A stretch of DNA of 64,000 nt from Volutella citrinella (Eukaryota; Ascomycota; Sordariomycetes; Hypocreales; Nectriaceae): positions 620,001-684,000 of the forward strand of contig JAWZSP010000010.1 in NCBI GenBank assembly GCA_034401135.1, read 5' to 3'. The number at the start of each line of letters is the position of its first letter. Position 1 is the stretch's first letter. Shown piece by piece: positions 6,416-50,203 of this stretch. The notes below the pieces were generated by a model, which was not told the origin of the DNA, did no database searches, and saw only the letters and a list, made by a program, of their open reading frames with translations. The translations under genes and the position numbers were made by a program.

Positions 6416-6433
6416 GTCAACTCTTATTGAGTA
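6416..6433. repeat. 18-bp sequence shared with 50342-50359
   Basis: GTCAACTCTTATTGAGTA occurs here, across the stop codon of the OrsD-YR-OrsD gene, and identically at 50342-50359, where a gene is cut beside a palindrome array. It contains the short inverted pair CTC...GAG. The identity ends sharply on both sides. It may be a shared insertion-target or element-end sequence; chance is not excluded. Confidence 0.4.
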
Positions 6434-9400: not shown

Positions 9401-10055
9401 TCGTCAGCAGCATCGGGGGCACAGATTCAGTTGCTCCCTGTAGCTTGAAGCGGCGATTCTCCTCACGTTCTAGCCTGGCACGCTCCTGCGCAAATAAATC
9501 CTCTGCGAAATGCCTAACAACATCGGGGCTAGCTTGCAGGAGGACGTTGGTATTGTGACGTCTGATCTCGAGCGGATCGTCTGTCACCACAATCCACGAC
9601 CTCTTGATGTCGCTGGCTGCCCAGCTTTGGAAGGAAATGCCCTGCCGAATATGGTCGTGTAGCCAGTGGCGTGTCTGTTGCCGACCCATACGCCGAACCT
9701 TGTCCTCATGCTCCTTTCTCAAATGATCGGCGAGTACCTTCTCACTCACTGAGCGGAGGCCGCAGTGCTTGCATGCCGAGCCACGCTGCAGGGCAAGATG
9801 CGGGTGAGGCCTCGAGCCATCGACGCGTAGGGGAAGCAAGGCAGGATCCTGTAGTTGTAAAGAATGGATAAACTGATTGAGCCCCCGGCGTTCTTTCTTA
9901 GAGATATCGTGTTTCTCCCAGAGATGTCTCGATACACGGTCGCTCTGGGGGTTAAGGGCAAACTCGCATCTGGTGCAGAGGATGGCGTGCTCTGGCTCAT
10001 TGAAGTGTAGGCCAAGCTTCTCTAACCACCGAAGGTCCTTGCGTGATAAATCCAT
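6417..10055 (-). CDS. OrsD - tyrosine recombinase-like - OrsD protein, no helicase
   Basis: An intact 1212-codon frame. Domains: OrsD 1 at 15-158 (C27xxC30, H44/H49; C95xxC98, H111/H116; ISFQSW); an acidic/serine spacer 375-440; helical core-binding region 450-700; YR catalytic region 700-900 with R716 (GGQCARISELL), K750 (RHHKARL), R842 (QLYRQISIAI), H882 and Y891 (GHRPMQRHMTY); basic patches KRR and KRAR near 956-974, possible nuclear signals; OrsD 2 at 1040-1205 (C1056xxC1059; C1132xxC1135, H1148/H1153; PWREGVICQ). His-to-Tyr spacing is nine, as in XerD or Cre-type recombinases. Where TLH proteins carry a RecQ helicase this one has a second OrsD domain. The likely role is site-specific DNA recombination or DNA binding in the nucleus. 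Its 5' region holds palindromes and telomeric repeats (10213-10399). Absence of stops suggests recent activity or constraint. Confidence 0.75.
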   Translation of the reverse strand: MDLSRKDLRWLEKLGLHFNEPEHAILCTRCEFALNPQSDRVSRHLWEKHDISKKERRGLNQFIHSLQLQDPALLPLRVDGSRPHPHLALQRGSACKHCGLRSVSEKVLADHLRKEHEDKVRRMGRQQTRHWLHDHIRQGISFQSWAASDIKRSWIVVTDDPLEIRRHNTNVLLQASPDVVRHFAEDLFAQERARLEREENRRFKLQGATESVPPMLLTNWLRRTGWPKLLEHARRDVLVSLTALPPREPVQPLSLGMVDGQLVQSSASDERKLASMIPAIDRLLDQCSETARSTDVCLRRWLRGRFPDQPYKAPFELVSRLSSEKLYRKELKRFICFSLRLSRILPATAKTIMGRRLGRRQLRALLDLWGDDIWEAEDADDDRMSVIDGYEYEDQADDDEDQDSLEEDELEYGEEYESPDEQESAQSDTDSTSTSSSDATQQRQHGNRAVDLLLRFCYFALCEEFEDGLAGSTMLVYFSAVRGLSAPNGDEYLMPHRFTPILSRFIYCSRLIFLEAILPQFSHGYIGIPRRPRYGQLTRLLAARRRYMCDGTLSVMGEFLSLLSYGSALRRSQGAVFYFHWSEDGEVLSWDGNQQLSMGNFRNMARCVLQSATALSARLMYDWEPPDIDMTYIRDRMATTTPGYSFVSDPTNQLADAYLEVLLRACISPVNGLVRTHARTQGAWDAKAAQAYLEAHDDFLKTLMVLCNLDGGQCARISELLTVEYSNTSSRSRGIYIWGGQICSVTRHHKARLATNQEFCVARFFSQLVSRLLLHYIIYIRPLALAILRKCFHSETNGIVLLFAPLSKIGTSWDSSTFTKELRRHCDATPGVPDGIGVQLYRQISIAITERHVRAAAERFNRYDDVTRAAGHDPVFAWQSGHRPMQRHMTYGLDGAYPDSLQPALLQNYARVSASWHAFLWGEDSMLSVDQPLADNETTGSASALMSTDGGLSPSKRRLSAHAAESPPIRKRARLASPTEGDPADADADLQYLGSDNDLGTASCADNVPIVLPSPVGPSTLHIEDQGQLSTESAVERSLLTIGPFVHLAQWNLMACIACKYVILATEAKSHLLLPCHNHTFSISERRKIVGEIMAVPGLVQDQDEMQLWEYPPPDTNPIPYIQPPRRDGLGCNECAYVVRNIHGIQAHCRTQHGWVNDWKRGGNVHDRTPQGRPSMPWREGVICQRLCHWGYGGRWFEVSRVREEPILLNKS

Positions 10056-10383: not shown

Positions 10384-10399
10384 TTAACCCTAACCCTAA
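10384..10399. repeat. Interstitial telomeric repeat
   Basis: TTAACCCTAACCCTAA, two and a half units of the CCCTAA strand, lies about 60 bases outside the palindrome array. A telomeric tract so close to the 5' end of a TLH-type gene suggests the element once bordered a chromosome end, or that it targets telomeric DNA. Confidence 0.75.
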
Positions 10400-11173
10400 T
10401 ATATTCGTCACTACTGCTACTCCTACTATACTACTTATCTACTTCTTAACCCGCTGCATTGCCGACCTCCTGCTAATATCCCTCACAACCCAATCAATCC
10501 GTAATTCCCTGCACCTTCTTAATCATGCTGCTATATATAATCACCTTCCCCCGGACCATGTGCTGCTATCCATGCTTAAACAACCTCCCATACCCGCTCT
10601 ACTATCGCCTCGTATTCCTCGCCCTCCTAATTAACCCTGCTGTCCACCTTTATCCTCCTCCAGCTGCCGTTTGCTACTGCCCCTCTACTCTTGACCCCGT
10701 CCTCATCTTCAATCACCTCGACTCTGTACTGTATATTCCGCTCCACAAACCTCCGGAACCCCTTGCTGACGGCTGACTCTGCCGTTACAAATACCAACGA
10801 CGCCGCCCGCTGCACCCCTCGACTCTTCTACATATACGCGTCGATCCCCAACCCTAAACACCGCTCTGCCATATCATCCTGCAACGATACCAACGGCCAT
10901 AACCGTTAACCCGTCCGGCGTGCAATATGCCGGCAATATAAACGTCTAAACTCTTGCCCCCTCCTGTCGGCGTCACCTGCACGATCAGCCACTCTCCCCG
11001 CGCCACCGACTACTCTGCTTCTTCCTACCCTGCACCGCCTGCTAAAATAGCAATACTAACTATATATACTATACTAATAACTCTCCTACCTTGCGCGGTA
11101 AATACCGGTGTATAACCTTAATATTGCCAGTCTGCCGGAACTCTTTAATTACCTAGCAGTCTATTACACTGTC
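10400..11173 (-). pseudogene. Decayed TLH helicase fragment
   Basis: Strongly C-to-T shifted sequence downstream of the nearly complete TLH. On the minus strand around 10815-10627 one frame reads SLVFVTAESAVSKGFRRFVE, matching the segment before the DExH box of the other copies (VFTTPESAMTKRFQDYVE at the 36-40 kb copy). Other frames are broken by stops. It is therefore a second helicase remnant in the same orientation, implying that TLH copies were once arranged in tandem here. Confidence 0.55.
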
Positions 11174-14100
11174 TTATTCTATCTCAAACCAATACCCGCC
11201 GCCCTTATATGCCTCCCAAATAATCGCCTCCCATAATGCATGCATATTCGTCCCTCCCTTCCCATGAAACTGCCGCCGGGCTCCTAACCATCGGAAAAAA
11301 GCGTCCCTATCCTGCGTATCAATATTAAACTGCTCCTTCGCTAATTCCCGTACCCGCCAGCTCCGCAGCCCCATCAACACAACCGGCAACACCTTATCTT
11401 TATATGCACAATATCCCTCCTCCTCTCGCGTTTCCTCGCACCAGTCTAGCGGGAGCTTACACGTAAAGCAGCACAATAACCGCCCAAACGTGATCTTCTT
11501 ACGCACAACTTCATAACTCTCGTCGGCCACGTTCTCGCACCACTGCCCACCCTGCTTATGTCGCGACTTATCCGACACTTTCCCGTTCTCCAGTCCCCTG
11601 TAATGACGACGGACGTGACATACCGGACACTCGTCCGCAACTTCGTCCAGCCACCGGAATAACATCCTTACCTGCATGCCCTCTTTCGTGCCAAACGCCT
11701 TCCAAATTTCCCTGCCTTTATCCGCATTAACCCTCTCGCTCTCGTCGTCTTCGTCTATTCCTCCCTCGCTCTGTATACCAATGACACTCTCCGGCAACTC
11801 GCATCGATCACAAAGCTCGGCCCCAGCCACATCTCGGCACGTCTCTCCAGTCACCCCATCCATGAAACCGGCGATCACCGCCCGTCGGCAACCCGGCGTC
11901 GACACGAATGCGTCCATCTGTGCCTGATTGATGTTGTCCACGAAGCTGCCGTGTCGGTCCTCCCGCGGCGGTCGTCCATCATGAATGATGATCGACTTGA
12001 CCACCTCCCCTGTCCGCCGCCCTCCCCGGCCTGTCTGCTGCACAAAGTCCACCAGCCCATACGGTTGCTCCACGTGAACGACGGCAACAATCCCCTCGAT
12101 GTCGACCCCTGTCCCCAGCCCGGTCGTTGCCACAATCCACCGGCTTGCTCGACCCTCTATCCACGCCGTTCGCGCCTCATAGCGGTCCTTTTCGGTCATG
12201 CCGCTGTGATGGACCTCGCAGCCAAGCTCCTCGGCTATAGCTTCGCACTGTCCCCTCGACCGGCAGTACATCACCCCTTTCTGTCGGCCTGTCAACTGCG
12301 CATCAAGCTGCTCTATGACCTCGACTGTGCGCTTCTCGACCGCCCCGCCCCCGGGCTTGACCTGCTCGACTCGGTATCGACAGTTCAGCTTCGTCGTCCG
12401 GTCTCGCACCATTACTGCTGACTGTGCCAGCATCTCGCGGCGGAACCACACCTCGAATATGTCCGGCAGCGTCGCCGTCAGCAGCACGATCGGACACCCG
12501 TATCGGTGCAAGCTCCGTAGCTCGCCCAGCTTACCACGGTACCCGATGTCCATGATGATCGTGTGACACTCGTCGATGAATATCCGCTGCAGCAGCCCTG
12601 CACAACATAGCCCGTCCACGTATCCTGAAAACTCGGTACTGGAAACGATGTCTGCGCTGACGACCACCAGCCGTGCTGCTCGCGGCACACCCTCTCGCCC
12701 GGAGTTCATCGACGACCTGAACCGTATGCAGTCGACGCCCATATCTGTTGCTCGCGCGACCAAGTCATCCATGAGCGCAACGAACGGCACCACCACGATG
12801 CTCGTCCCTGTCTCTCGCATCACCGCCGACAGCATAAACAGTATGCTTTTTCCCGCCCCCGTCGGCAGCACGTTGATGGCCGTCTGACCGTTCTTCATTG
12901 ACACGATCGACCGCATGCTCTCGGCTTGCTTGTCGGATCGCCAACCGGCGCCCGGTCCGAATAACGTCTGCAGTCCGTCGACCATGTCTTGCTCCGTGCA
13001 CCGTTGTCCTGCTTCTTTATCGGTCCTTGCCCGCTTGCGGCTAGTCGTCTGGGCCGGGCCATCGACGACCCTCTGCTTGTCCGACACTTGACCCTTTCGC
13101 TTGCGTGTCGGCGCCTTATCCTCTGCGCTGCTCCCCTCCAAAAACTGATGCCATAGCTTGCTGATCTCCTTGAACGTTGCTATCATTTCCGGCTGCAGTT
13201 TCCCGGGGAAGCCGATATGGACGGCGTAATGCTGCCTCGCGATGCGCGTTCCATGCGTCGACTGCAAATCCCACACAATATTCCAGCTCCCCCCGCAGTC
13301 AATCGGCTCGCCTGTGATCGGGTCGATCTCGATGTCATCGTCATCACCCTCATCCTCCATTCGACCCTCGAGCTGCTTCATCACCAGCCCTCGGATCCGC
13401 CGGCCCATCTCGATCGCAATCGCCCGGTACCGCCCCACCCCGAGCCGTACCCCCGTGCCGGCCTGCATCACTCGTGCAAGCTTTCTGCTGAGCCGCTCAG
13501 TATCCCATATCCGCGAACTGCCGTCTCTCCACATATATTCAAGCTGCTCTCCGCGCGGCTCCGTGAGCTTGCACTCGCGTCGTAATACCCGTTCCGCCGG
13601 AATCAACCATGATATATATGCCACCATCATCCGCCCGATCCGGTCGGGAACAAATCGTGCTACCTTCCGGCCGTTATCACGAATCGCCTTCATCTTGTCT
13701 CGGTCTGTGACGATCATGACCTGCCCATCCATCACGAATATATTCCGTATCAGTTGCCACGAGTCGCAGTGCCGCAGCGTTGTCAGCTCCGGCCCCCTAC
13801 CCGGGAGCCCGCCCCACGTATGCACAAGCACCATGAGCGTCTCCCTGAGCAGCCGCAAGTATCGAAGCCACTTCTTAACCCCCTGTTGCTTCCACCGGTT
13901 CCGTGCTGAGTCCCAAATGGATGCTTCCATGAGCCTCGTCACCTTTGCCGGCCCGGCTTTCAGCCAGTCATTCTTCGGATTCGTCGCGAATGATTGACCT
14001 ACTCCATGCCGCACCATGCTGTCGGCGATCCGATCCATCTCGATCTTTCGGCTGACCGTCTGCCACGACCCTCCGAATAGTTGATCCAGCAGCTTTTGCG

Positions 14101-15268
14101 CCTCAGTAACCTGACCGCGGAGCGTACGGGTGAACTTATCGACGTCGACCTGCTCGCCCATGTGGAACACTGCCTCTCCGTTGTCGGCCCATCGTATCGA
14201 CGCCTGACCACCCATCTTGTTGCGCCAACCTTTGCCGTACGCCATCCACCCAATGATCGTACTCACGACGGTGTGTGTGCCGGTACACATCCATGCCATA
14301 TGCTGCTCCCGGAACGCAAGCACGGCATCAATGCCAACCTCGTCTTGATCCCGGGGCTGAGTCTCGAATACCGACTCTAAAAAAAACAGCCGGCCCCACC
14401 ACAGTACCGCCGCTAGCATCCCCGTGTATAAGTGCGGCTCTGTGTAGCCAAGCGGGCGTTGTTGGACGCCCAGCGCAGCGCAAAAGCCCAGCAGCGAGTT
14501 TGTATATACGTTTCCGCCGACATGGACTTTGATCGAAGCAACGATGAATGAGAAAACAGCCCTGTCAAGTGCGCTATGCGTCGGGGCGACTATACCCTCA
14601 TCTTCTGTTACCTCGTCGTCGTCATCGTCGTCGCTGCCCGCTTCGTTGTCGCTCTCAGCTTCCCTCTCTCTGCTACTGCAAAAGCCGCTATCGTGACTGC
14701 TGGGGAATGCATCCCCCTCCAGCTCTTCTGCGACGGCGCGTAGTAAGCTCCACTGCTCGTCCGTGAAGCGAACCGCCCAGCGCTTGAATGCCTCTTCGCG
14801 CCCGATGCAATATGCCCTCCAGCAAAAGCTCAAGTACCGGTGACCAACAGACCGATACTTGGCCATCGATGCCTCCTTGCCTTTGCGACCAAACGGCACG
14901 CCGCTCGGGTTCGCTGCCGTGATGCTGGCGAGCCACTGAAGCGTCTCTATCGGCACGCTATCGAGCCGCCAGCAGCAGCGGTCCACCTCGCGGTCGAAGC
15001 TCTGCCCGAGCCGAGCCAGTAGTAACCGTTCACGAGCTGCTCGCTCATCCTCCTGCTGGGCCCTTCTACCGGTCGGCGCCTTTGCCCTTACCCACTCGGC
15101 TGCTTCGTGAACGCTGAGCAAGTCGCGGGAGCCAAAGTGCCTCACCCAACCCAACCTCTTGATCCACGATGAATCGCGGTCGATGTCCTCTTCCAAGTCG
15201 CCCATCCGGAGCCTTGTAGTATCTTCTGCCTTAAGCTGGGCTTGACTGCTAGCAATCATCTTTTCCAT
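11174..15268 (-). CDS. TLH: tyrosine recombinase-like domain fused to RecQ helicase
   Basis: 1364 open codons. Residues 30-470: helical core-binding region with an acidic run at 211-225. YR catalytic region: R491 (PGRGPELTTL), K525/K527, R615 (RYRAIAI), H672 and Y681, nine apart. Basic linker KRKGQ...RKRART (722-747), a probable nuclear signal. RecQ core: Walker A LPTGAGKS 801-808, DECH 899-902, LLTATLP 929-935, motif VI QQTGRGGR 1077-1084. Cys-rich C-terminus with CPVC at 1214 and CCFTC at 1266-1270, then CAY. RecQ enzymes unwind DNA 3'-5' using ATP; TLH genes of this kind are known next to fungal telomeres. The frame continues upstream of the Met at 15268 as a decayed OrsD domain (15269-15781) with many stops, so the original protein was longer. 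It is possible that the shortened protein is still made. Confidence 0.85.
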   Translation of the reverse strand: MEKMIASSQAQLKAEDTTRLRMGDLEEDIDRDSSWIKRLGWVRHFGSRDLLSVHEAAEWVRAKAPTGRRAQQEDERAARERLLLARLGQSFDREVDRCCWRLDSVPIETLQWLASITAANPSGVPFGRKGKEASMAKYRSVGHRYLSFCWRAYCIGREEAFKRWAVRFTDEQWSLLRAVAEELEGDAFPSSHDSGFCSSREREAESDNEAGSDDDDDDEVTEDEGIVAPTHSALDRAVFSFIVASIKVHVGGNVYTNSLLGFCAALGVQQRPLGYTEPHLYTGMLAAVLWWGRLFFLESVFETQPRDQDEVGIDAVLAFREQHMAWMCTGTHTVVSTIIGWMAYGKGWRNKMGGQASIRWADNGEAVFHMGEQVDVDKFTRTLRGQVTEAQKLLDQLFGGSWQTVSRKIEMDRIADSMVRHGVGQSFATNPKNDWLKAGPAKVTRLMEASIWDSARNRWKQQGVKKWLRYLRLLRETLMVLVHTWGGLPGRGPELTTLRHCDSWQLIRNIFVMDGQVMIVTDRDKMKAIRDNGRKVARFVPDRIGRMMVAYISWLIPAERVLRRECKLTEPRGEQLEYMWRDGSSRIWDTERLSRKLARVMQAGTGVRLGVGRYRAIAIEMGRRIRGLVMKQLEGRMEDEGDDDDIEIDPITGEPIDCGGSWNIVWDLQSTHGTRIARQHYAVHIGFPGKLQPEMIATFKEISKLWHQFLEGSSAEDKAPTRKRKGQVSDKQRVVDGPAQTTSRKRARTDKEAGQRCTEQDMVDGLQTLFGPGAGWRSDKQAESMRSIVSMKNGQTAINVLPTGAGKSILFMLSAVMRETGTSIVVVPFVALMDDLVARATDMGVDCIRFRSSMNSGREGVPRAARLVVVSADIVSSTEFSGYVDGLCCAGLLQRIFIDECHTIIMDIGYRGKLGELRSLHRYGCPIVLLTATLPDIFEVWFRREMLAQSAVMVRDRTTKLNCRYRVEQVKPGGGAVEKRTVEVIEQLDAQLTGRQKGVMYCRSRGQCEAIAEELGCEVHHSGMTEKDRYEARTAWIEGRASRWIVATTGLGTGVDIEGIVAVVHVEQPYGLVDFVQQTGRGGRRTGEVVKSIIIHDGRPPREDRHGSFVDNINQAQMDAFVSTPGCRRAVIAGFMDGVTGETCRDVAGAELCDRCELPESVIGIQSEGGIDEDDESERVNADKGREIWKAFGTKEGMQVRMLFRWLDEVADECPVCHVRRHYRGLENGKVSDKSRHKQGGQWCENVADESYEVVRKKITFGRLLCCFTCKLPLDWCEETREEEGYCAYKDKVLPVVLMGLRSWRVRELAKEQFNIDTQDRDAFFRWLGARRQFHGKGGTNMHALWEAIIWEAYKGGGYWFEIE

Positions 15269-15781
15269 AGCGCTAATGCCGGCGTTATCAGACGCGACTA
15301 TGCCGGCATCCTCCTCATCATTATACTTTCGAACCGTCCAGTACCGCGCATACTTCCCCCCTATCCACGTCTATAGTCAAACCTCTATCCACCGAGCCTC
15401 TGCTTATCCATGCTATGCTTCTCTCTAGTAACAGACAGCGTTGTCTCGTGCTACCGTAAGATATCAGCATGCAGTGCAGCTATAACCTTTCAGCACTAGG
15501 AGCAGTTCAATAGCTGCACTGCCATCTACTAAGAGTACATCATTTTCCAGGTCAGCCAATTCCATGCTAGTATAGTAGTCATTGATCTCTCTCAGCATGT
15601 CACCTATCAACTAATGTGCCCATCGGAAGTGCTTCTCGAAAGTATTCAGCTGCAGTGCGGTATTACATTTATAGTAAATAAGCTTCTAGTGCTCCTCGTT
15701 AAGTTATACATACTCGTTCATTACGTGCTTACGATACTTAAATATCGATTCGTGATGTTGATAAAATATAATATGACTGAA
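15269..15781 (-). pseudogene. OrsD domain of the same TLH, in frame but riddled with stops
   Basis: In exact frame with the TLH at 11174-15268, this stretch still reads as OrsD: FEKHFRWAH, GSAAIELLLVLKGYSC, YLTVARDN, ARWIEV and TWIGGKYARYWTV are visible. Nine in-frame stops interrupt it (TAA, TAG and TGA), at positions where aligned domains have Gln, Arg or Trp, that is CAA/CAG/CGA/TGG changed by C-to-T or G-to-A. The downstream 1364 codons carry none. The domain would have been the N-terminal zinc-binding DNA-interaction part of the protein. Confidence 0.65.
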
Positions 15782-16091: not shown

Positions 16092-16300
16092 CTATTTTCG
16101 TTGATCGGTCTCCGTCCTAGTTCAAAGATTAGAAGTCAGTAGATAAATTGAGATACCTTTCCCTTTTCTTGTCCGTAACCCTACGTCGGCTGTCCGGAAC
16201 GGACAGTAACATTTATGATGCCAAATACCTACCAGTCCACATGGTGTGTTTACTTGCCACATTTATGGCTTTCCTGGGAATTACTGACGACAGCCTCTAG

Positions 16301-19208: not shown

Positions 19209-19221
19209 GCCGGCCTCTCGG

Positions 19222-31780: not shown

Positions 31781-32413
31781 TTGCATCTACTTGATTTGGT
31801 TTTCTACCACTTGGAGGACCTTCGCGTCCTCAGCTGTCGCATATGTTCGACATGTGTTATCGGATGCAGGATCGAGCCTCACTTGCGCGCGCCGCCTCAT
31901 AAGCTTACTAGGCCAGCGATCAAGCAGGCACAGAAGTGGGCAGCAACGCTTGACATTATCTGGAATCAGGACGATATACACCAAATACCATTCCCGCCAG
32001 ACACTGACCCGCCAATTCAGGCGCTAGGAATACCCAAGACGGGTGGGTTTCGATGCACGGTCGATCCAGGCTGCCGATTTGTAGGGTCATCTCTACGAAG
32101 GATTCGGGAGCATGGCAGACTGGTTCATGAACTGGGACAGCGGCTCAAAGGCGGCCGTCGATCAGCTGGCCAGCGTGAAGCCGAGCAGGCCAGCGCACCA
32201 TGGAGAAGCGGAGTCATCTACCAGCAGCTGTTTGCTAGAGGTCCCCGCAGCGAGCTCTTCGAGGTGGCTCGTGGCCAAAGCATTGCCGCATTGGATCTCG
32301 AGCAGGAGCAGAGAGAGAGGGAAGTAACCGAGGCAGTGGACGCGTTCCAGTCTAGAGCAAAGCAGATTCGAAGAATGGAGGGTGAGCAATTTCAAAGGAA
32401 GGCTAGTCTTGAA
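31781..32413 (+). pseudogene. TLH N-terminal fragment: OrsD domain
   Basis: The frame encodes a full OrsD domain: SCRICSTCVIGCRIEPHLR, AQKWAATLDIIW, the second zinc unit (FRCTVDPGCRF...HGRLVHE), GGRRSAGQ, APWRSGVIYQQLFARG and ELFEVARG. It ends in a helical KQIRRMEGEQF stretch, then homology stops near 32413. The start codon matching the minus-strand copy at 43.6 kb (MEYFLY) is TTG here (LVFYHL). The upstream sequence AAAGTAAGTAGAGCTC at about 31706 is shared with that copy. It retains no YR or helicase portion; it is an element end left beside the interrupted P450. Confidence 0.7.
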
Positions 32414-33169: not shown

Positions 33170-34252
33170 TAGCGGTTAGCGGTTAGTTTAAACCCTTTTA
33201 CTGCCGCCGGCGCGCCCTCTTTCTTTAGTAGTTAGCAGTTAGTTTAGAACCGTTTCCACTGTACCCTGTCAGCAAAGTACTACACTCTTCTTCTTAATAG
33301 CTCAACCCACGCCACAACCCTAGCTCTCTAACTTTTACTCCGCCAGCGCGTTTACACACCTCAAGGTGAGTTAGACGCAACCAGCCTGCTACGTATAGTC
33401 AGTCTCCTTGCCCTTAACCCTTACCACAGCTGCTTAGCTCACTCTACACTCCTCAACCTTATAGCTCTAGTTGCCGTCCCAGTCGTAGTCATAGTCGCAG
33501 TCGTTGTTGTAGTTGTAGTTGTAGTTGTAGTTGTAGTTGTAACGGCAGTCACACTTCTGCTCCCTGCCACCCAGCTTAGCACCTTACCTCTCTCCTGGCT
33601 CCTTCTCTCTACCCCCGTCCTGTTTCTACCACTCTTTAACCCCGCCGCACAACTCTACTAGCACCCTTCACTCTCTTTAACAACCTACGCCCTTACTAAC
33701 TCGCTCTTTACCCAGCTACTCAGCACCCTACGCCTCTGCTTACTGCTCTACCGGTTACTCCTGCAGCTTGTACTGCTGTACCCTGCTCCTACACGTCACC
33801 ATTTAGCTTCTCAACTGTCTCAACAGCCACACCACCCTTCCACACCCCACCCGCCAGTCTCTCTCTTTAATTCAATTCAAGAGCGCCTCCCCTTCTACTC
33901 CTTACACCCTAGCCTCTTCTTTACTTCAGCCACGCTCGACTACAACCCCGAGACCACCAACAAGCACTACCGAGCTCCATTTAGCTCCCACCTCTCATCC
34001 CCTAGCCCTTTCTGTCTCTCTCTCTCTTAGCTTCTCACTGCCACAGTGCGCCCCTATAAATTAGAGGTACGCTTTTACTACCTCTACTCTATCCTACTCT
34101 TAACCAGTTGAAATTAGACCTTACTAAAAACAACGCAGTGCCTCTTGCCCTAGCACTACAACCCTCGCTCCTCTTTCAACCCTATACTACTGACCTCCAG
34201 CACCATAACAGTTCCGATAACGAGAGCCCTCACTGTTGACCTTCCTTAACCT
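33170..34252. other. Pyrimidine-rich tract without genes
   Basis: More than 1 kb whose plus strand is markedly rich in C and T, with almost no open frame. It starts with short GGTTAG repeats (33171-33185) and contains a (GTAGTT)n microsatellite at 33506-33540. It ends in telomeric repeats at 34253. Such strand asymmetry suggests subtelomeric filler or decayed low-complexity DNA. Confidence 0.5.
33506..33540. repeat. (GTAGTT)n microsatellite
   Basis: About six uninterrupted six-base units, preceded by related GTAGTC/GCAGTC units from about 33486. Simple sequence; no CRISPR-like spacers. Confidence 0.85.
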
Positions 34253-34273
34253 TTAGGGTTAGGGCTAGGGTTA
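34253..34273. repeat. Interstitial telomeric repeat, TTAGGG strand
   Basis: TTAGGGTTAGGGCTAGGGTT then A, three and a half units with one variant. The G-rich strand reads to the right here, opposite to the tract at 10384, so the two are in inverted orientation. It closes the pyrimidine-rich tract. Confidence 0.75.
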
Positions 34274-34449
34274 CCCATAAAACCTACCCTAGACCAAGAC
34301 ATAAACTACCCCTGAACACATTATCGCACCATCTATAGCTCTGCCCCTTGCCAATAAGTATTTACCTAACTAAGAAACGCAAAGATATATAAGAGGAAAC
34401 TTATTCAACACCTTGTAACTCATCATCGTCTTTCCATACTCTCTTTCTC

Positions 34450-34753
34450 CGACCAGAAGCTTGTCGAGATTCTGCACTACCTCTTAAAGGAAAGCGTCTT
34501 CGAGTCTAATTACAAGGCTCGCCTACTCTTTCCCGAGCTGTTTCACCCGCCTCCATCCGAACTGAGTGTGACCTGCGCCAAGTCTCCTCCTCCTACTACC
34601 ATACACTCCTTGGCCATGGACCTGGATAGCCATGCCCGGTTTCTAACCCATATCGCACGCATACCAGCTAGGCAATTCCTCCCTTCAGTACTAAAACAGG
34701 CCCTCCAGCCAGATCTGCCTCTCTGCCTCCACCGCATCCGGATAAGACCCTAA
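34450..34753 (+). other. Open frame fragment of unknown origin
   Basis: Reads SDQKLVEILHYLLKESVFE, KARLLFPELFHPPPSE, then HSLAMDLDSHARFLTHIARI and stops at TAA/TAG 34751-34753. The composition looks protein-like but no family is recognised and no start is obvious. Overlaps the end of the minus-strand frame at 34691. Confidence 0.25.
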
Positions 34754-36119: not shown

Positions 36120-39100
36120 CTACTTAGGATACTCTGCCATATATGAAAATACCCTACAGATATTCGATGCGTCAGTCCCAGCCCACGATACCCTCTGTCC
36201 CATCCACTTCCACACCTGCTCCCTCCCCTCTTTGCTCGACCATCCTTTCGCAGGAAGGCCTTGGAATCCAAGTCTCTTATAGAGATCATCTGCCTCTTTA
36301 GGTATGTATGCCCCAACATAGGCAATCGTCGACACCACGACCCCCTCGTATTGACATTTCCGGCCGGCCACCTTGCGCCACCCTCCACCCGCTACATCTT
36401 CCTCCCACGCATCACATAATTCTTGCGGCATGAAGCAGCTCCGACAGCAGCCAAAGTCCTCTATGGTTTTACCCCGCCACAAGAACCGTTCCATCGTCAC
36501 GGCCATCTTGGCGGCTGCCGCCTTGCCTTCTTCCTCCATCTCGGCCATACCAAGGCACCCGACCCCTGAATGCTCCGCGTCCTCGGCCCCCTCTCTAAAA
36601 TAACAAAAGATGCAGCCCTCGAGCGACCTCTGCTGTAGCCTCTCCTTGAACCCGATCCATTCATCCTCCTCCCGAACGCTAGAAGTGACCGCTCGTCAAC
36701 GCAACGCCTGAACGTCCAGCTCGCGCACCCGCATGCAGCTTTCCTCCTCATCCTCGGAACGCCCCGTATCTTCTTCCAGGTCCGCTGCTAGGCTTCGCCC
36801 CAGGCAGATATCGCACATCTCTTCTTCTTCTTCTTCTTCGCATCCCTCTCGATCAGCTCTTCCGTCCATAACCGAGTCCATCACCACTCGACGGCATACC
36901 TGCCCACTGACGTAGTCTTGAGCAGTCGTCTCCTCGGTCGCCAGACTCCAGGCCCTCCTCTCCTGCTTTTTGTCGCCCAGGCTCACCCGGACCACCGTGG
37001 CCTCGCTGCGAAGCCCATCCCGCCCTGCACGCCCGCTCTGCTGTGCATAGTCAGCCATGGCGAGGGGCATCTCGGCGTGGAGAACAACCCGGATGTCGGG
37101 CACATCAATGCCGAGGCCCAGTGCGTTGGTGGCCACAATCACCCGTCCCTCGCCGTACTGGTCTCGTACAGATCCGCTCATCCAGGCGCGGACCCTCTCC
37201 GCCTTTCCATCTCTTGTATCGATCTCTCGGTGGTAGGCGTCACACCCCAGCTCCTCCGCCACAGCTTCCGTGGCATCTACTCTCTGGCAGTAGATGATGA
37301 TCTTGGCGGGCCAAGGGTACTCTTCGAGTTTCGCATCCACAAGCTGCCGTATGGCCATTGTCATCGCTGCTGAAGCGTCGGCGGCCCTAGTCACAGGAAC
37401 AGACTGAACACTGTACACGATATTAGCGCGCGTCGTACGCATCCGGACCATGTGCACGTCCTCGCGCCTGGTGTTCAGGAGCCTGAATAGAGCGTCTTCT
37501 TGTGTAGGTGGCAGTGTGGCTGTCAGGTATACCATCTGCACCCCGATCAGCGCCAGGCTTCCGAGCTCTTGCAGTTTCGGCCGGAACGCCCTCGTGCCCT
37601 CTAGGATCGTGTGGCCTTCGTCCACTACGAACCGATCAAGCCGTGCAGTAACCCGCAGCATCTCGACATAGTCTTGGAACCGCTTCGTCATGGCCGACTC
37701 GGGCGTCGTAAACACGATGGACACGTCGCCCGGCACTCGATCCGCCCTCCACTCGGCGCAGGCGATGTTCAGCTTCTGACAACGTTCCATCATGTCGCCC
37801 TGCAGAGAGACGAGCGGGACAACCACCACCGTGACGCCGCCGGGGCAGCTCGCAGCCGGCAGCATGAAGCAGAGACTCTTGCCCATACCCGTTGCCATAA
37901 CCACCACGATAGGACTTGCGTTCATCATGATCAGCTGGACCGCCTCGCGCTGCTTGCCGCGGAACCTGGCCTGGTCCCCGTAGAGACGACAGAGCTCCCG
38001 GTCGATATTGACACGCCGCAGCATCTTCCACCGTCGTAGCTGGAGGTCCTGCATAGCCTCGTAGTGTAGTGACGGGTTCTTCCGCTTCCGCCCCGGCTTC
38101 AGCACATCCCTAAACCCACACACGGCGGAAGGGAACCCAAAGAGTCGATGCAGCTCCTCGCTGATGAATCGAAACTGGACGCGGCGTTCATTCGTCTCGA
38201 AGCAGCCCTCCGTGATGAGGCGCCCGTAGACCAGCCCGGCGATCAGGGATCCGTGCCCGGCCTGTACGTCCCACGGGCTATCCTCGTCACCTTCGTCGTC
38301 GCTGCCGCTGCCGTACCCCTCGTCCGTCTCCCCGATCAGTGCCGAGTAGGCCGTGTTCGCGTTCCGGAAATACCTCCGCGTAAAGGCAATGACGAGATGC
38401 CTACAGCTGCTGATCGTCAGCCCCTTCTTGCATCCAGCTTGGCTTAGCCTTCGCAGGATGCGCGTCATCCGGGGCGACGTCCAATGCTGACCGGGGCCAA
38501 GCTTGCGGCGACGCTTATCGTATCCACCCTTTTGTAAATGATCATGTTCCTCGTTGACTGATCCATCTCCGGCGAATCCATCCTCATCTTCACTCTCCTC
38601 TGCCTTGTTGTCGAGCGTCTCTTCTGTAGCCCACACGGCCGCACTGAACTCACTGGGGCTGTACACATTGGCCTGTGCATTTTCCCAGAACGGCAACACG
38701 AGCCACAGATAGTACACCAGCAGCACGCCGACTTCGCGTGGCAGGAACCGATGGATGATCTTTTCCCGCTCTGTCTTGGAGAATCCTTTATGATAGCCTG
38801 CGACAAGCATGACGAGCCCGCGGTCGATGAATACATTCCGTACCCCGCCATTGATAGTGTTGCGGTGCCGTAGGGTAAGCAGCTCTAATGCACGGGCGGG
38901 CTGCCCGCCGGATAGGTGTACTAGGAATAAGAGCACCTCGAGAAAGTCTTCCAGCGCCATACCGTACTGCAGAAGAGCCTTATCGTGCAGTATGAACTGA
39001 CCCTCCGAGTCAATGTGCGCCCACTGGCTTCGGAGCTCCTCGTTTGTCCACACCTTTCGAAAGAGCCAGGCTTTGCTGTCGGGCTGGAGAGCAAAGAGGC

Positions 39101-40760
39101 CTTTCACGAATGAGTACCCAAGAGTAGCATCTGCTGCATTGTCGATGATGTCGTCCCAGGGAATCTCGGGGATGCCGAGCTCCCCTACTGTTTGGTCCGT
39201 ATAGTGCGGGTAGAAGAGTAGCTTAGTATAGAGCAGAGTTTCAGCTCGGCGCACTGCCGCCTGGAGCATGGTCTGGATGCCAAGGACGCTCAATCGAAGA
39301 CCCTTATATACGGCATGCTCTCCGTCCCAGCTAACCGACCCCTGGGTCGCTTGGTTTCTGTCCGCTGCCATGCCGTAGTTCCGCAGTCGTATGATGAATT
39401 GCGTGGGCGTTGTGTCCCAGCCCCGACCGCCCCCAACCATGAATCGTCGTGTCATGTCGGAGATGAGCTCAAAGTGGCTCGGGCTATTCTCTTCTGCTTC
39501 CTCCCCGCTCTGGCCGCGGTCTCTCTTTCGCTGGATCGAGCTGGCTCGTTGATCGACAACGTACTTGATGAGCAGAAGGCGTGAGATAGCCATGATGGCA
39601 GAGAGCTTAGGGGTGAAGTTGCTGTAGCCTTCCCACGTCTTGTCCTTGCGAATACTAAGAACCATCAGGAAGCTCACGAGGACGCTCTGGTATTCAGTAG
39701 TCTTCGTGAAGTGGTCAAGGATGGAGATGTACAGCTCCAAGACAGCTGCGTCTAGTCGGTCCCGTAGCCCTGCGACCCGTGGACCGTCTTGAGCACCGCC
39801 CGTCTCCTCCAACGCATCCGTCAGGTCATCGACATGCTCCATCATGGCATCGTAGGCAGCACTTTGCCTCCGGCTGAGCTTGAACGGCGGCCTCTGGTTT
39901 TTATCGTCGAATGCCATACACCGTACAATGTAGGCAAAGAGCTGCAGGCATACTGCAATATACTTCTTTCGCGTTGCAGGCTTGAACCGGAAGTGGAACG
40001 GCGTGCTGCGCTCCTTGTCAAGCTCTTTTCGGTTCGCTTCAAACAGCACATTCCATGAGACCACGTCTGGATGGGTCGCAGAGATGGCGCGGCGGATCAC
40101 ACGCTGGACCGCGAGGTGTATATGCTGGAGCTCGTCATCATCTTCTCCCGCATAGTCGAGTGATACAAGTCCCCGCAGGAAGTCCTTCTTCCCGCTGAAG
40201 TCCTTGAGGTGCCCCGGTGCTCCCAGCCGACGGAGCCACGGGTTGGGTGAGGCAAAGTCGCCCTGTTCATCGATTGATTCGCCTTCGCCCTTTCGAACCT
40301 GCGTTGCCTTGAGCTGGAATGCTTCGAACGCCTCCTCGATGCCCTGTTCTCCTACCCGCTCCTCCGCCTCCAGTTTGTCTAGGTCTCGGCCGCGGCCAAC
40401 CTCGAAGAGCTCACTACGAGGTCCTCTCGCGAAGAGCTGTTGATAGAAGACGCCGCTTCTCTACGGTATATCGGTTCGCTCGGCTTCGGCCTGGGCGGCA
40501 GACCGGCGGCCGCCCTTGAGCTGCTGGTCGTACCCGTGCGCATCCGTACTGTGCTCTCGGATCCTCTTCCACGTCGAACCCACAAATGGGCAGTCCAGAG
40601 TAGAGGTACACCGGAACCCATCCGACCTGGGCTTTCCGAGTGCTTTGATCGGCAGCCCGTGATTGTCATAAATGTCAGGGCGGCAGCACGCTGGGGGACC
40701 TTTAGAGAGGTAGCAATGCCTCAGGCTGCCAGAGGTTAGTTGGTTGGTACTGCGCCGCAT
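36120..40760 (-). pseudogene. TLH: OrsD - tyrosine recombinase-like - RecQ, two in-frame stops
   Basis: One continuous frame of 1546 codons from ATG 40760, interrupted only by TAG 40461-40463 and TGA 36696-36698. N-terminus: second half of OrsD (FRCTSTLDCPF...HSTDAHG), then RSGVFYQQLFARG. The TAG replaces the Trp conserved in every other copy (PWRSGV / PWREGV / PWRVNV). Counting from the Met at 40100: YR residues R403 (GGQPARALELL), K438, R567-H568 (SSCRHLVIAFTRR), H616 and Y625 (nine apart); RecQ Walker A MATGMGKS 735-742, DEGH 827-830, YLTATLPP 858-865, QQSGRAGR 1020-1027; CDIC at 1096. Past the TGA the frame continues as the Cys-rich tail (EGCIFCYFR, FGCCRSCF). The first zinc half of OrsD is missing. 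RecQ unwinds DNA; the YR part would cut and rejoin it. Nearly intact and inactivated only by two point changes. Confidence 0.85.
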
Positions 40761-41485: not shown

Positions 41486-43027
41486 TTATCGGTTGACATC
41501 CTTTGGTGCGGGTGGTGTAGCGCTAGCCGGGAAATACCGTTGTCGCACTTTCACGGGCGACTGACCTGCCTCCAAAGCTTGAATCGCAGCGTTGCTCCTA
41601 TTCAACAATCGCTTGATCTCTTCATCATAGGTTTCCTCGTCCAGATCGTTGTGTTGAAGATATTTCGTGTAGCGCCGGGATTCGGCGAGGCGACGGTCCA
41701 CGCCTCTCTGCAGTTGGAGCATGTCGGGTGACGGGATGCCACATGACGCAGGCATGTTGGGGACGAGTTGTTTTCGAAAGATGAAGCGAATATCTGCTGG
41801 ATCTAGTAGAGCATGCAGCAGAGACCATCGAAAGGAATCCTCGAAACCCCAGTCGACCGCGAGCTGCGAATGGTACTTCGACTTGTGTTTGACAGAAGAC
41901 AGAACGCTGAAAAACTCCTCAGTTAGTGCAGGCAGTCCTCCGCGGTTGCCGGTGATCCACGCCGGGGGTATGCTGGCGCACTGCGGAACGGTTGTGGCGT
42001 ACTCCCAATCGATGATGCCGGTGATATTCCAATCGTCATCTACGAGGATATTTCGACAGCTGAGATCGCAATGCGCTATGAAGAATGGCTCGTCGAAGGG
42101 TATGGCGAGTCTTTCTTCAGCCTCTGGTTGACTGACGAATTGCACAGCAAACTCGTCTTGTTCTGCCTCCTCTAAATCGAGACCTTTCTCGGGCACCGTC
42201 CACATTTGGCGTAAGAGGCGACGCTGCTCCCGGAAAAACTCTTGTGGGTTGGTAGTCACAACTCGGGGGAGTGTACGGCCTGCCGTATGGAGTTCGCTGT
42301 TGCGCATCGAGAAGGCACCAACAATACGTGGTGTGTTTCCGGAATCAAGTTCGATTAGGGACCCTCCTTGTGTGAAGGGAAGTTTTCGAAGCTCAGCAAA
42401 CACATCGATGAATTGCTCAAAGAATCGACGGCGGAGTGGCTCTGCACCATCCTTGAGGTCGTGCTTGTTCAATGCCTGTCCGCAAAGGTGCTCCATAACC
42501 ATGAAGCATTGAGGCTCCGAGGTATCTCGACAAAGCGGGCTTCGGCCGTATGTATACACGCGGGGAACGGGAATGTTGGTATTACGTCGAAGATACCTAG
42601 GAATACACTGTTAGCCGGGAATTACACGGTATATGTATAGTACCTACTCCATTGTGGCCACTTCAGATTGTAGCTTCTCCCAGACGTCTGGTCCTGCTGG
42701 TTGGTGGGGGATTCGCATGATCCGGAGGGACCCATCGCTGAACCGAAGAAAAAAGCATGTGTTGAAGCTGCCTTGGCGTTGCTCTGTAATATCACATGAT
42801 ATATTGCTGTCGTGATGCTTGGAACCTAAAGCCCGAATTGCATCCCTGTCGATGGATTGGAGGAATTCGTCCGTCTTGCGATCAATTTGCCTGTCGGTCA
42901 GCGGCCACGGGTCGGCGGGCGTTCGAAACAAGGCAAAAACTCTTATGCGGAGCTTTCCGATGAAGCTAATAATCAACGTCCAAGGTGTCCAGAGAGGCAA
43001 GAGGCGGTCTCTAATGAATCTGAACAT
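41486..43027 (-). CDS. Aminoglycoside-phosphotransferase-like (APH) kinase
   Basis: Exon 1 43027-42648, exon 2 42596-41486; intron 42597-42647 with GTAGGT donor and CTAG acceptor, which restores EYLRRNTNIPVPRVYTYG. 496 residues. N-lobe: GSFNTCFFLRFSDGS and IMRIP. C-lobe: catalytic HCDLSCRNILVDDD (HxDLxxxN) and IIDWEYA with the metal Asp. These are the hallmarks of the APH/choline-kinase-type fold, which is widespread in fungi with unknown small-molecule substrates. A short hydrophobic stretch near the N-terminus (LWTPWTLIISFIG) could be a membrane association or a mere buried helix. The gene is intact and carries all catalytic residues. Confidence 0.75.
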
Positions 43028-43311: not shown

Positions 43312-43770
43312 TCATCGTGCTCCACCGGCCGCATTGTCGATGATATCATCCCATGGAATCTCAGGAAGGCCAAGCCCGGCTGCTGTCTGGTCGGGATCAT
43401 TTGCGCGGTATAGTAGCTTTGCATAGAGTATCGATTCGGCGCATGGGTTCTCCAAGTGCTTTGATCGGCAGTACTGTATCCGGTAGAAACGGTACGTTGG
43501 AGATGTCTTCTTGCTCCCAGATGATATCAAGCTGACGCGCCCATTTCTGTGCCTTCTTGATCACTGGCCGACGTAGGCCGCGCAAGTGAGGTTCGATTCT
43601 GCATCCAATCAGACATGTCTCGCACTTACGACAGCTGATGACACGGAGCTCTTCTATGTAAAGGAAATACTCCATTGGGCGATAGAGAGATGATGTGATT
43701 GTCTAGGGAGAAACTACAAAAACTCCTTCCTCTCGCTCCGGCTTCTTCTGTTCCCCTGAGCTCTACTTAC
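43312..43770 (-). pseudogene. TLH scrap: OrsD start joined to core-binding segment
   Basis: From ATG 43675 the minus strand reads the OrsD start (CRKCETCLIGCRIEPHLRG, AQKWARQLDIIWEQEDI, PIKALGEP). It then jumps, out of frame near 43445, to AESILYAKLLYRANDPDQ and LPEIPWDDIIDNAA, a segment that lies about 300 residues later in intact copies. An internal deletion of about 1 kb therefore joined the two parts. Upstream it shares AAAGTAAGTAGAGCTC with the copy at 31.7 kb, so these are the same element family. Nothing functional is left. Confidence 0.65.
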
Positions 43771-46061: not shown

Positions 46062-47299
46062 ATACATTTCGTCACGATATATATCCCCTGCATTCTACAT
46101 AGGTACAAGAGGCTGGATATTGGTGGTGAGCAATCTAGTTACCACTATACGCATTAAAAACTAGACTTATTTTCTATATATCTTTAGCCAGTATTCAATT
46201 AAAAAAATTGCTAGAAAAGCCGGATACCCCCTACGTGCGTTGCCTGTGAAATGAAGCCCGCGCTCTTTCTAGCTTGTAGGCATATACCCACATCAAGTCG
46301 AGAATTCGTTGGCCTGGAGCCTCCGAGACCATTGTTTCGGCCTTCTTCTTGTCAATTGCGAGGATCCAGTGAGGCATCGCCCTGGCTGATAAGCCAATTG
46401 CCAGTAAATCTCCAGCCGGATAAAATAATATCCTTCCTCATGCCCGCCTCTCTGGCTTTCGCGTATACCCGAATAAAGTTAACATTGTCAACCGGCGCAG
46501 AATCAGTCAAACTAGCCAGCTTTTAGAGTTCTTTCCGAATCGCACATTTAATAACTTTAAAAATTCCATTATCTAAAGGCTGTAAGCCATAGAAACAATA
46601 TGCTAGTAGGTAACAGCAGTAGATCGTCAAGAAGTAGTGGTAAAGGAGGGTCGGCACGCGCTATGGAATATGCAGCAAGCCTGGACATAAGTCAAGAACG
46701 TGTCAAATAGTGATTAAGACACCTAGGAATAGTATAGCAATTAGTTTCAATTAATAAGATAGTTTATTATGTTTTTATAGCGATTTCTATTTCAAAGGTT
46801 TTAATTTTTAATCCGCATACTTATCTGATCCATATACTTGTTATATACATTGTCTACTAGATAGCAATTAACATAATCTCAGGGTAGGAAGCGATAGATA
46901 ATCTTAAGACATTCTGTCTTTAAGAACCCTTTATAATATCTAGTAACAAGTATAAAAAGACTACAGTCTATCAAGATATTTCATACCCTACCGTTCACTA
47001 TATTACAATACCGCAGGGTGAGAGCGATTAATAGATAAGGCACTACGTATAAGCACTAATAGATAGATAATATACTATCCTTAATTCACTATCTTCCTTA
47101 GGGCTACAATTCAGGCCCTATTACCACTAAATCCCAGCCACACATACCACTCACAGCAAATTCATCGATATTCAGCCTTTACACTAGCAATATAACTAGG
47201 CGCCTCCTATAACCCTCGTGCATAAGTTAAACCTACTAGTTTAGTTAAATGCACTGCCATCTCATCATTCCATGCCCAAGAGACTGCTTCAATAAAATC
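46062..47299. other. TA-rich decayed DNA
   Basis: No genes. From about 46530 the sequence is strongly TA-rich with many TAG/TAA triplets in all frames, as expected of heavy RIP on a former repeat. A short plus-strand frame at 46251-46526 has no domain. Confidence 0.5.
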
Positions 47300-49702
47300 T
47301 CGTTTAAACTTTGCCTGCTGCAGGTGCCGGCGTGAGATCGCAATAGCAGCATGTCTCCACAGCTGAATATTCGTCTCTGTTCCAAGAAAGAGCCTGAATG
47401 CCCTGCTTAGTGTGTCGGATAATCTCGTGCCTGGCCATGAATCGTCACACGCACTGGTTTCCGCTCTACCAGCCGCGCCTTCTGCATTTGTTTTTAGCCG
47501 TCTGAGTGTCCGAGATATCTTCTTCTTCTCTCTTCAAGCAGCCTTATCGTCTGTATTGGAGCATGGTGGGGTGAAGTTCTTCTTACCCCATGCTGAGATC
47601 ATCGGCGGAATGGCGAATTCACCCCACAGATACGGCGTTGTTGCTCTTCTGAACCCAGGGATCTTTGCTAACCGGGACAGTTGGTCGAGGAAAGGAACCA
47701 CAAGCAAAACATAATACACAAGAAGCTCCCCCACCTCACTTGGCAGATACCAGTAGATAATCTTAGTTGTACCAGTAATACTGTACCCTTTGTAATAGTA
47801 AGTCACAAAGCCAACCAATCCATTTTCGATAAAGATATTTCAACGTCCTCCGGATCCATCCCTTAGATTAGAGTGCTATATGCACAGCAGCTCGGTCCCA
47901 CACGCCGGCTGACCCCCTGTAAGATGCACAAGAAGTAACAGCCGCTCAAGAAAGGCATTGACTGTAGAAAGATACCGAATGACAACTTGCAGTCGCCATT
48001 TAGCCGTCTTTTCGCTCTCGAAAAAGTCATTCCAGAGAAACTCTTCCTTAAGTATCCAGTCGAGGAGCCATCTTTAGTGTCCATAGAGAACTTCATTTTA
48101 TAGATGTTAAGTAAAGTTCCAGCCTGGTGTACTCTCCGATGGATCATCTAATAATAACCGCAAGCTGATTTTGGGTATAATGTCTTCCCTCTCAGTATCA
48201 GGTAGTACGAGAAGTAGGTCGGCTAACTGGCTTTAAGCGGCCTTGACTTCTATAGCAACAAGATTTCAGAGCCCTGTCATTAAGAATTGCATCTTCTTAT
48301 AGCTCAGCATTTCATTATCATCTAACCAAATGATATGACCAAGACTCGTTGTATTATCCTTGATCGCTTTGCCATAGGCGCGAAGCTTCAACAACCAGCT
48401 GATCGGTGACCTTGAGTCCTTTGTCACGAACCGATCTTGCATCTCTTCCAGCACTCGGGCTGGGACATCAGCTTCATCAAGCTCGACTGCGAGCAAAGCC
48501 CTCTCTGCAACAAGAAATTGACCCATCTTAATAATTGCTAATAACTTGGGAGTAAAATCGGCGGCATCGTATAACTGTTGCCCAGTGCTAGATCTTGAAC
48601 CTGGCCGGATACCTATTGCGGCAAGAAATCCAACCACAATACTGTCGTAAATGTCGCTATATAGCTTGTAGTCCAAGAGTGAGACCATGAACACAAGACA
48701 TCTATCGTCAAGTATCTTCCTCAGGTCCTCGGCTTGATCTAGACTGAGCCCATCGCCATCGCTCTGAGCTAGCTCTGACGCCGTACGGACTGCCTCGAGC
48801 ATTGCGACTGCCTGCCCGTCGGTGAGCCGATAGTGCAGTCTTGGCCCTTTTTTCTGCCACGCAAGGCGAAAGACGTAACATAGTAAGTGTTGGAGAACCC
48901 GCCCGTACTTCCTATATATCTCTTCCTTCAAGTTGTGGATGATTAGCTTCTGCGATAAGCGGCCGGCAATGAATGAGTTAAGCCGGTGCTAGTCAAATAT
49001 ATTCAGCCTTCCTTCCTTTAGCAAGCGCCGGGCTCGGGCTATAATGCGATCAAGAGAGCCGAGGAGAATGAATAGTAGAGCATCTGAGCTGCTTGTAACG
49101 CTTTATTCATATGATTTGCCTAAATCAGGCAGAAAGGTTAATACAGCAACATGGCACAGCTCGTGCTTATAGGGCTCCAGAAAACGAGGCCATTCAGTCA
49201 TCTAGAGCCACTGTGACTAGTGCCTTACATCTCGAGACATAAGGTGAATAGAATCATTTTCCTGCGTTGCAGTAAAATGCTCTTCTCCTTCTTGCCTAGC
49301 AAGCTCAAGGTCTATGAGATCCTGAAGCCCGGACGCAGAACGCCTAGGCTCGTTGTGTGTCCCATTGCCCTCTGGGCGCGGCGTTTCTGCGACTATATCC
49401 AGCCGGTGCTGACTTCCCTGGCCGGCAACCATAAAATAACGACATCGAGAGTTGCGGAAGAGAGTTTGACACGGCAGCTGATTCCGTACCAAGCCAGCAT
49501 GAACCAACCCCTCGATGCCACCAATCGACCCACTGCATCGTCGACCTGGCTTACGAGGCGATAGACCATGTATTTTCCTCAGGTATTCTTCAATAGCTAT
49601 GCGACCTCGGCAGATATAGCGGCTTGTGTCATCCTCGCAGAGCTGACAACTAATGCCATCGTAGAATACACTGAGAAATCGAATAGGCGCGGCACCTAGC
49701 AA
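47300..49702 (-). pseudogene. Decayed TLH: OrsD to YR region
   Basis: Read right to left in three open fragments: 49702-49217 (OrsD: CQLCEDDTSRYIC, and LPCQTLFRNSRCRYFMVAGQ), 48931-48266 (core-binding: FRLAWQKKGPRLHYRLTDGQ, ADFTPKLLAIIKMGQ, LLKLRAYGKAI) and 47818-47534 (YR: YYYKGYSITGTTKIIYW, LPSEVGELLVYYVLLVVPF). The order and orientation match intact copies; frames are separated by stops and the helicase half is absent or unrecognisable to the left. It has the 5' palindrome module at 50204-50341 and is thus the body of that element. Confidence 0.7.
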
Positions 49703-50203
49703 TGGTCAGACCGCTTTGTAGATCTCATCTGGGTCTTGTCTCAATTCCAGACGATCGAAGGTCCGCACAAATAACTTAATTATAACGGATTTGTGAATAC
49801 GCATTGGATTGTAGTAGAGGCGGATATGATAGGAAAGATCGGTCTGCAGTACAGTTTCACACTCCTTACATATCATAATCCGCTATAAGGAATCGTGGTA
49901 AAAGAGGTTATTAAGATCCATGATTGGGCTATGTCTTGGGAGTGATTTAAGGTGATTTCTTCAAGAACAAAATTGTCCATCGAAGAGCAAAGAAGCATGC
50001 TATAACACGTGTGCCACGATAAGACGCGACGAGACGCGTTAATACGTGTAAATGAGTAATCAAGAAAAAGCAAGGAGAGCATCTCGAGTAGAATTGATGA
50101 CGGAAATAGCCCGGGTTTAGACGACAGCCATATTTTTACAGGGGCAGGCGACAATTGAGGGTATACGACAATTAATAATAGAAGAGTAGGGGTCTATAGG
50201 GGT
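49703..50203. other. Upstream region of the decayed TLH
   Basis: Non-coding, TA-rich. At about 50143-50175 it holds GCAGGCGACAATTGA and ATACGACAATTAATA, like the direct repeats near 31371-31461. Confidence 0.4.

Follow-up and report, generated by a model that had tools for sequence, protein, structure and literature searches.

The DNA considered here is a 64,000-nucleotide stretch of Volutella citrinella (the window), lying at positions 620,001 to 684,000 of contig C10 (JAWZSP010000010.1) in a 45.1-Mb assembly of 26 contigs. It contains two genes, Q1 and Q2, in which a putative tyrosine recombinase (YR) domain stands ahead of a RecQ helicase core, and the evidence gathered below supports placing them in the telomere-linked helicase (TLH) family of fungi, with a YR-type catalytic domain joined to the RecQ core. 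Their open reading frames (ORFs) and parts, all on the minus strand, are as follows:

36696..40100, minus: Q1, YR-RecQ ORF, 1134 codons from a GTG at 40100 (open frame of 1254 codons)
38106..39428, minus: predicted core-binding and YR catalytic region of Q1, about residues 225-665 (AlphaFold model, VIA-align, conservation)
38892-38894 (R403), 38883-38885 (E406), 38787-38789 (K438), minus: putative catalytic codons of Q1
38400-38402 (R567), 38253-38255 (H616), 38226-38228 (Y625), minus: putative catalytic codons of Q1
36966..37988, minus: RecQ helicase core of Q1, about residues 705-1045 (Pfam; PDB sequence matches)
40464..40679, minus: upstream rest of the OrsD/linker region of Q1 (tblastn of P0001, P0006 and P0008)
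36132..36695, minus: downstream Cys-rich tail of Q1 (tblastn of P0006 extends to 36132)
11174..15268, minus: Q2, second YR-RecQ ORF, open frame of 1398 codons
13796-13798 (R491), 13694-13696 (K525), 13424-13426 (R615), minus: putative catalytic codons of Q2
13253-13255 (H672), 13226-13228 (Y681), minus: putative catalytic codons of Q2
15370..15721, minus: OrsD N-terminal part of Q2, in the same frame (tblastn of P0122, P0125 and P0129)

The RecQ core that an earlier note on this DNA had placed behind the YR residues is confirmed in Q1 by the Pfam domains DEAD (residues 717-868) and Helicase_C (932-1029), both behind the YR region, and by RECQ5 as the best solved-structure sequence match (residues 704-1033); Q2 likewise has a RecQ-type helicase behind its YR residues. 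The region ahead of the helicase has no Pfam family name. An OrsD region precedes the helicase in many homologues (PF12013) and persists as damaged ends in Q1 and Q2, and some homologues are annotated as tlh1, tlh2-like or recQ family helicase, in keeping with the link to telomere-linked helicases and OrsD that the note had drawn. The full TLH form would comprise an OrsD double zinc finger, a helical core-binding domain, a YR catalytic domain, a RecQ helicase and a Cys-rich tail. The YR and RecQ stretch is uninterrupted in both genes, but, judged by homologues, the real frame begins further upstream than the ORF limits given earlier, with the OrsD zinc-finger region: an in-frame stop at 40463 splits the Q1 ORF from its OrsD/linker rest, another at 36698 cuts it off from the Cys-rich tail, and several stops fall in the OrsD part of Q2 (about 15370-15680). 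Q1 and Q2 may be ageing copies, or later start codons may be in use.

All residues that the earlier note had assigned to a YR site are found where it put them, in Q1 (R403, K438, R567-H568, H616 and Y625) as in Q2 (R491, K525/K527, R615, H672 and Y681). It had named free variation at the five aligned positions as a reason to doubt the site, and these positions hardly vary. The Q1 search found 139 homologues and that with Q2 125, with 120 listed in each case; the pooled searches gave 242 proteins, 13 of which were dropped for lack of a domain stretch of at least 300 amino acids, leaving 229 aligned rows. Among 95 long sequences (93 listed homologues of at least 1000 amino acids, Q1 and Q2), R403 is kept in 94, K438 in 94 (one T), R567 in 92 (three gaps), and Q613, H616 and Y625 in 94 each. 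Across the 229 rows the counts are 227 for R403, 226 for E406, 228 for K438, 221 for R567, 217 for Q613, 217 for H616 and 219 for Y625; R, K, R, H and Y are all exact in 212 rows, 12 others differ only by gaps, and five carry substitutions (P0120, P0136, P0149, P0187 and P0235). The five catalytic columns rank within the 12 most conserved of 405 well-filled columns, and the hypergeometric chance that five preset columns all fall in the top 13 is 1.5e-8, a figure that assumes exchangeable columns, which is not quite true. The H-to-Y distance of nine, likened in the note to XerD-type enzymes, is kept in 211 of 212 rows, R-to-E is 3 in 212/212 and R-to-K is 34 or 35 in 212/212, whereas the K-R and R-H spacings are variable, unlike these three, which YR enzymes fix. 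The first His of the HxxR motif, already reported missing, is indeed absent: the column holds S, A or G in 204 of the 229 rows and H in one.

Structure prediction, the other check that the note had proposed, pointed in the same direction: the AlphaFold model of the Q1 region, compared by VIA-align, has a predicted fold like that of YRs and not an unrelated one. Models from two clades (Q1 and Q3, the latter described below) match recombinases far above unrelated folds, and in each VIA-align comparison the leading rows (1-28 in one, 1-35 in the other) are YR or type IB topoisomerase (TopIB) proteins. With the Q3 model, archaeal Xer, XerH, XerA and Cre score 12.7-10.8. Telomere resolvases score low (TelA 5.1, TelK 5.8, ResT 3.7 and 4.2), which excludes nothing. 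Phage repressors also occur among the structural matches (MrpR in one comparison, SroF in the other), and Foldseek on its own gave weak matches for the YR domain.

The main weakness of the YR assignment lies at the sequence level, where profile comparisons with Pfam, PHROGs and hhalign gave no match between the domain and known YRs, a result that weighs against it. Pfam scans covered seven proteins at E up to 1 and 20 at E up to 10, and PHROGs four proteins. Comparison by hhalign with single XerD and lambda Int, alongside five E. coli/lambda control proteins, returned nothing significant, nor did comparison with an 81-sequence Xer profile alongside two family control profiles, in which the N-terminal control outscored the YR domain; the Arg boxes fell in register there (RISELL with RVSELV), at a sub-threshold score that is not counted. 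The best 60 PDB sequence matches of Q1, and likewise those of A1, are helicases, with no YR among them, and a PF00589 profile search of the genome gave no match while 14/14 control genomes were positive. Viral contigs yielded 34 pattern matches, none of them a relative, and a plasmid search 196 records, the five listed being RecQ genes. It is plausible that the YR domain has been left unnamed because sequence tools fail to connect it with YRs.

Is the pairing of YR and RecQ general? It holds in the two RecQ-bearing clades into which Q1 and Q2 fall, but a related OrsD-YR clade is mostly without helicase. Of 227 full-domain rows in the Q1 and Q2 clades, 194 have the helicase; of the 33 that lack it, 32 stop within 300 amino acids of the YR domain, which may reflect cut gene models. 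Where a helicase is present (198 rows), it stands behind the YR domain in 196, and the remaining two show a stray short match. The third clade takes in Q3 and, near the C10 end, a frame of 1549 codons (C10:14211-18857) that encodes OrsD and YR without interruption; it groups together with 99% support in a Shimodaira-Hasegawa-like approximate likelihood ratio test (quick tree, 74 of 124 non-redundant rows). The helicase is missing from 34 of its 38 rows, of which 21 have 167-559 amino acids of other sequence behind the YR domain and 13 end within 80 amino acids of it, possibly as cut gene models. Three helicase-bearing rows lie inside this clade (P0052, P0210 and P0088), and some such rows are perhaps fused gene models. 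R, K, R, Q, H and Y are complete in 27 of 58 third-clade rows; 24 are gapped fragments, P0259 and P0265 carry a substitution, and P0281, P0282, P0284, P0285 and P0288 are partial or misaligned, the alignment misplacing P0281 and P0288, which stand apart in the tree. That the catalytic site is kept where the helicase is absent argues for a YR domain working in its own right. By eye, the Cys-rich tail is seen in both helicase-bearing and helicase-less forms, and for this reason we lean towards loss of the helicase over its gain, in a tree that is unrooted. Two TLH genes, P0033 and P0159, come from metagenome-assembled genomes that are labelled bacterial (Blastochloris viridis, Planctomycetes), and they are probably fungal contamination.

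Altogether, 17 tblastn stretches of the TLH/OrsD-YR family were found in the window, 16 of them on the minus strand. Besides Q1 and Q2, the following features were recorded:

6417..10055, minus: Q3, OrsD-YR-OrsD ORF without RecQ, 1212 codons, two OrsD stretches
4406..6400, minus: OrsD/TLH N-terminal ORF of 664 codons, ending just ahead of the YR Arg box
46882..49924, minus: decayed TLH/OrsD copy with internal stops
43327..43675, minus: TLH fragments
10738..11146, minus: short helicase-type fragments between Q2 and Q3
31802..32410, plus: OrsD/TLH N-terminal fragment on the opposite strand
34109..34621, plus: remnant of a subtelomeric repeat downstream of Q1, oriented as at a left chromosome end
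16139..16213, plus: subtelomeric repeat remnant upstream of Q2
10385..10399, minus: interstitial TTAGGGTTAGGG motif, 3' side of Q2

In Q3, OrsD fingers flank the YR domain at both ends of the ORF, and the putative catalytic set is R716, K750, R842, H882 and Y891 (structure model and VIA-align). The OrsD-YR-OrsD architecture seems to be a stable form, as suggested by sequence homologues of similar length in Fusarium decemcellulare (1220 amino acids) and F. oxysporum (1234 amino acids). Among listed proteins, the closest to Q3 is from F. decemcellulare (89%), to Q1 from F. solani (67% over residues 220-700) and to Q2 from F. ambrosium (88% over residues 430-760). An ORF resembling APH-type phosphotransferases and choline kinases (41486-42559) adjoins Q1, and an inverted repeat with 41-nt arms, 78% complementary, and a 167-nt spacer lies at 52295-52543.

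Subtelomeric repeat pieces adjoin both YR-RecQ genes. The Q1 tail ends 1.5 kb from the remnant at 34109-34621, the remnant at 16139-16213 lies 0.4 kb upstream of Q2, and a TTAGGG pair stands 0.8 kb past the end of Q2, separated from it by the short helicase fragments. At 21 of the 22 ends of contigs C1-C11, and at one site 11.7 kb into C6, there is a subtelomeric repeat of about 440 bp, and because of this C1-C11 appear to be nearly complete chromosomes; C10, at 778,381 bp, would resemble a small accessory chromosome. The window occupies 620-684 kb of this 778-kb contig, yet it lies beside subtelomeric repeat remnants. Six-frame searches of the genome gave 34 places for Q1 and 32 for Q2, ordinary helicases included, two ordinary RecQ-type genes (C1:3.53 Mb and C4:3.13 Mb) matching the helicase part only. 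Copies or fragments lie about 13-26 kb from the ends of C1, C2 and C4, others are scattered over C10, and further copies are present on C5 and in the interior of C1, C3 and C6. One copy, 12.6 kb from the C2 end, contains 57 stops and would fit the expectation of repeat-induced mutation.

The earlier note had interpreted such genes as site-specific mobile elements or telomere-maintenance recombinases. The joining of a YR domain to a RecQ core is supported, but that status is conjectural: no shared termini, empty sites, circles or activity were found. The two remnants at 16139-16213 and 34109-34621 would be neighbours in a single repeat and are now separated by 17.9 kb, and this split suggests an insertion of 17.9 kb (window 16214-34108), at whose edges no clear target duplication was seen and to which no YR gene could be tied; according to PMC3627910, an absent target duplication would not argue against a YR element. 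A separate candidate was provided by a 20-kb repeat present three times on C10 (79349-99586, reversed; 266364-286574; 599786-619836, ending just ahead of the window), most aligned pieces of which agree at 96-99.8%. Its left edge is sharp (CCTACTCTTCTATTATTAATTGTCG), with an OrsD/TLH gene there that points inward, and in two of the three copies the same edge sequence returns in inverted form close to the right end. It was rejected as evidence for a YR-led element on three grounds: the OrsD/TLH edge gene stops ahead of the catalytic part, the edge sequence is repeated in reverse close to the right end, and similarity between the copies continues beyond it. These repeats enclose an OrsD gene that is cut short, together with what by eye look like an F-box/ankyrin ORF and a reverse transcriptase ORF of the long interspersed nuclear element type.

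Taken together, we consider it on balance probable that Q1 and Q2 belong to a family of recombinase-helicase genes that is associated with subtelomeres and probably selfish. Binding to a sequence in or near subtelomeres would fall to the OrsD and core-binding parts and, by analogy with Cre, Y625 would attack the DNA backbone and become joined to it through a 3'-phosphotyrosine bond, with R403, K438, R567, H616 and E406 assisting. The part of the RecQ motor would be to open the recombining ends, to move their branch point, or to power their copying, with the gene itself being integrated, excised or copied between chromosome ends as the outcome.

Could the same enzyme serve its host? Under a role in telomere maintenance, of the kind that has been suggested for TLH-type and Y' elements, it would rebuild or recombine chromosome ends upon telomerase failure, and copies would be kept because they help. 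The copies described here do adjoin subtelomeric repeats; PMC10532341 reports the TLH gene UMAG_12032 as up in two telomerase-negative survivors of Ustilago maydis, where UTASb consists of a conserved core, an OrsD domain, or both, and F. oxysporum TLHs often adjoin telomeric retrotransposons (PMC12857005). Copy number, decay and the 57-stop copy look selfish, however, and we regard the host-serving role as unlikely. The rival hardest to dismiss is a TopIB-like role, in which the domain would nick and reseal one strand, relaxing or decatenating DNA with RecQ, in parallel to RecQ-Top3 and reverse gyrase, which use type IA enzymes. In the structural comparison archaeal Xer, XerH, XerA and Cre come out ahead, and DNA-binding OrsD fingers and a multicopy subtelomeric spread suit a recombinase better; discrimination is weak, and we give the topoisomerase account a rather small chance. 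The lost HxxR His and the matches to MrpR and SroF would also suit a retired YR enzyme that now serves DNA binding or assembly, after the manner of YR-like phage repressors; retired sites normally drift, though, whereas here the five catalytic positions (Tyr, Lys, two Arg and His) rank within the 12 best-kept of 405 columns and persist in the third clade, where the helicase is mostly missing, making retirement very improbable. That a helical domain of a different fold fits these residues by coincidence, as the missing profile match and weak Foldseek results might allow, is scarcely credible given the VIA-align ranking and the residue-pattern chance.

If the recombinase-helicase reading is true, the OrsD family would acquire a probable function, a chromosome-end helicase would be joined to a strand-exchange enzyme, and a further group of fungal YRs would stand beside Starships and Cryptons. 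A conserved YR-type site in the same protein offers a directly testable mechanism for how helicase genes fill chromosome ends; the published facts most touched would be the rise of a TLH in telomerase-less U. maydis survivors and the vicinity of TLHs to telomeric retrotransposons. More tentatively, and with less confidence than an even chance, TLHs might be no host helicases but eukaryotic mobile elements of a separate class, in which OrsD fingers guide a single protein with recombinase and helicase parts; they would insert into chromosome ends or copy themselves between them and sometimes be used by the host to rescue failing telomeres, with OrsD proteins at large being YRs and their domesticated remains.

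Among known systems, the closest are the TLHs themselves (Schizosaccharomyces pombe tlh1/2, Magnaporthe oryzae TLH, U. maydis UTASa and F. oxysporum tlh), which have in common with Q1 and Q2 the RecQ core, the multicopy state and an OrsD part; they are subtelomeric, as family copies or fragments near the ends of C1, C2, C4 and C10 may be, while Q1 and Q2 lie well inside C10 beside subtelomeric repeat remnants. Reports of RecQ-like genes at fungal telomeres reportedly go back to 1998 or earlier (Sanchez-Alonso and Guzman). The accessible parts of published accounts describe helicase and OrsD, to which the YR domain is the addition made here; no publication joining TLH, OrsD or RecQ with a tyrosine recombinase was found in the text available, subscription papers lying outside the scope of the search. 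OrsD proteins (PF12013) have the same N-terminal double zinc finger, and the mostly helicase-less ones are the third clade; PF12013 spans only the 114-position finger region, and Pfam offers no family for the YR part that follows. With Xer/Cre recombinases the family shares the predicted fold, the R-E-K-R-H-Y order and the H-to-Y spacing of nine; unlike them, it lacks the HxxR His and has long inserts, OrsD fingers and a RecQ core fused behind, with no detectable sequence-profile match between the two. Starship captains (DUF3435) are also fungal YR-type proteins, and PF11917 (DUF3435) was absent from the matches of seven proteins at E up to 1 and from the 25 families listed, out of 26, for 20 proteins at E up to 10. 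The HxxR His is not universal among YRs: the Sanctuary captain likewise lacks it, with a Tyr at the H289 place and an Ala at that of Cre E176 (PMC12506042), as against S/A/G and Glu, respectively, in the domain described here. Academ DNA transposons, set alongside by description only, have in common a RecQ helicase in a mobile element. Academ is not known to be a tyrosine-recombinase element. That such a RecQ-type helicase is part of Academ, and that Cryptons are eukaryotic YR transposons found in fungi too, is stated in PMC3627910. Cryptons are likened here by description, and in the available portions of the literature Crypton and RecQ occur in the same papers but apart. TLHs, OrsD proteins and YRs are each already known, and what appears new is a predicted YR domain together with RecQ in one TLH protein.

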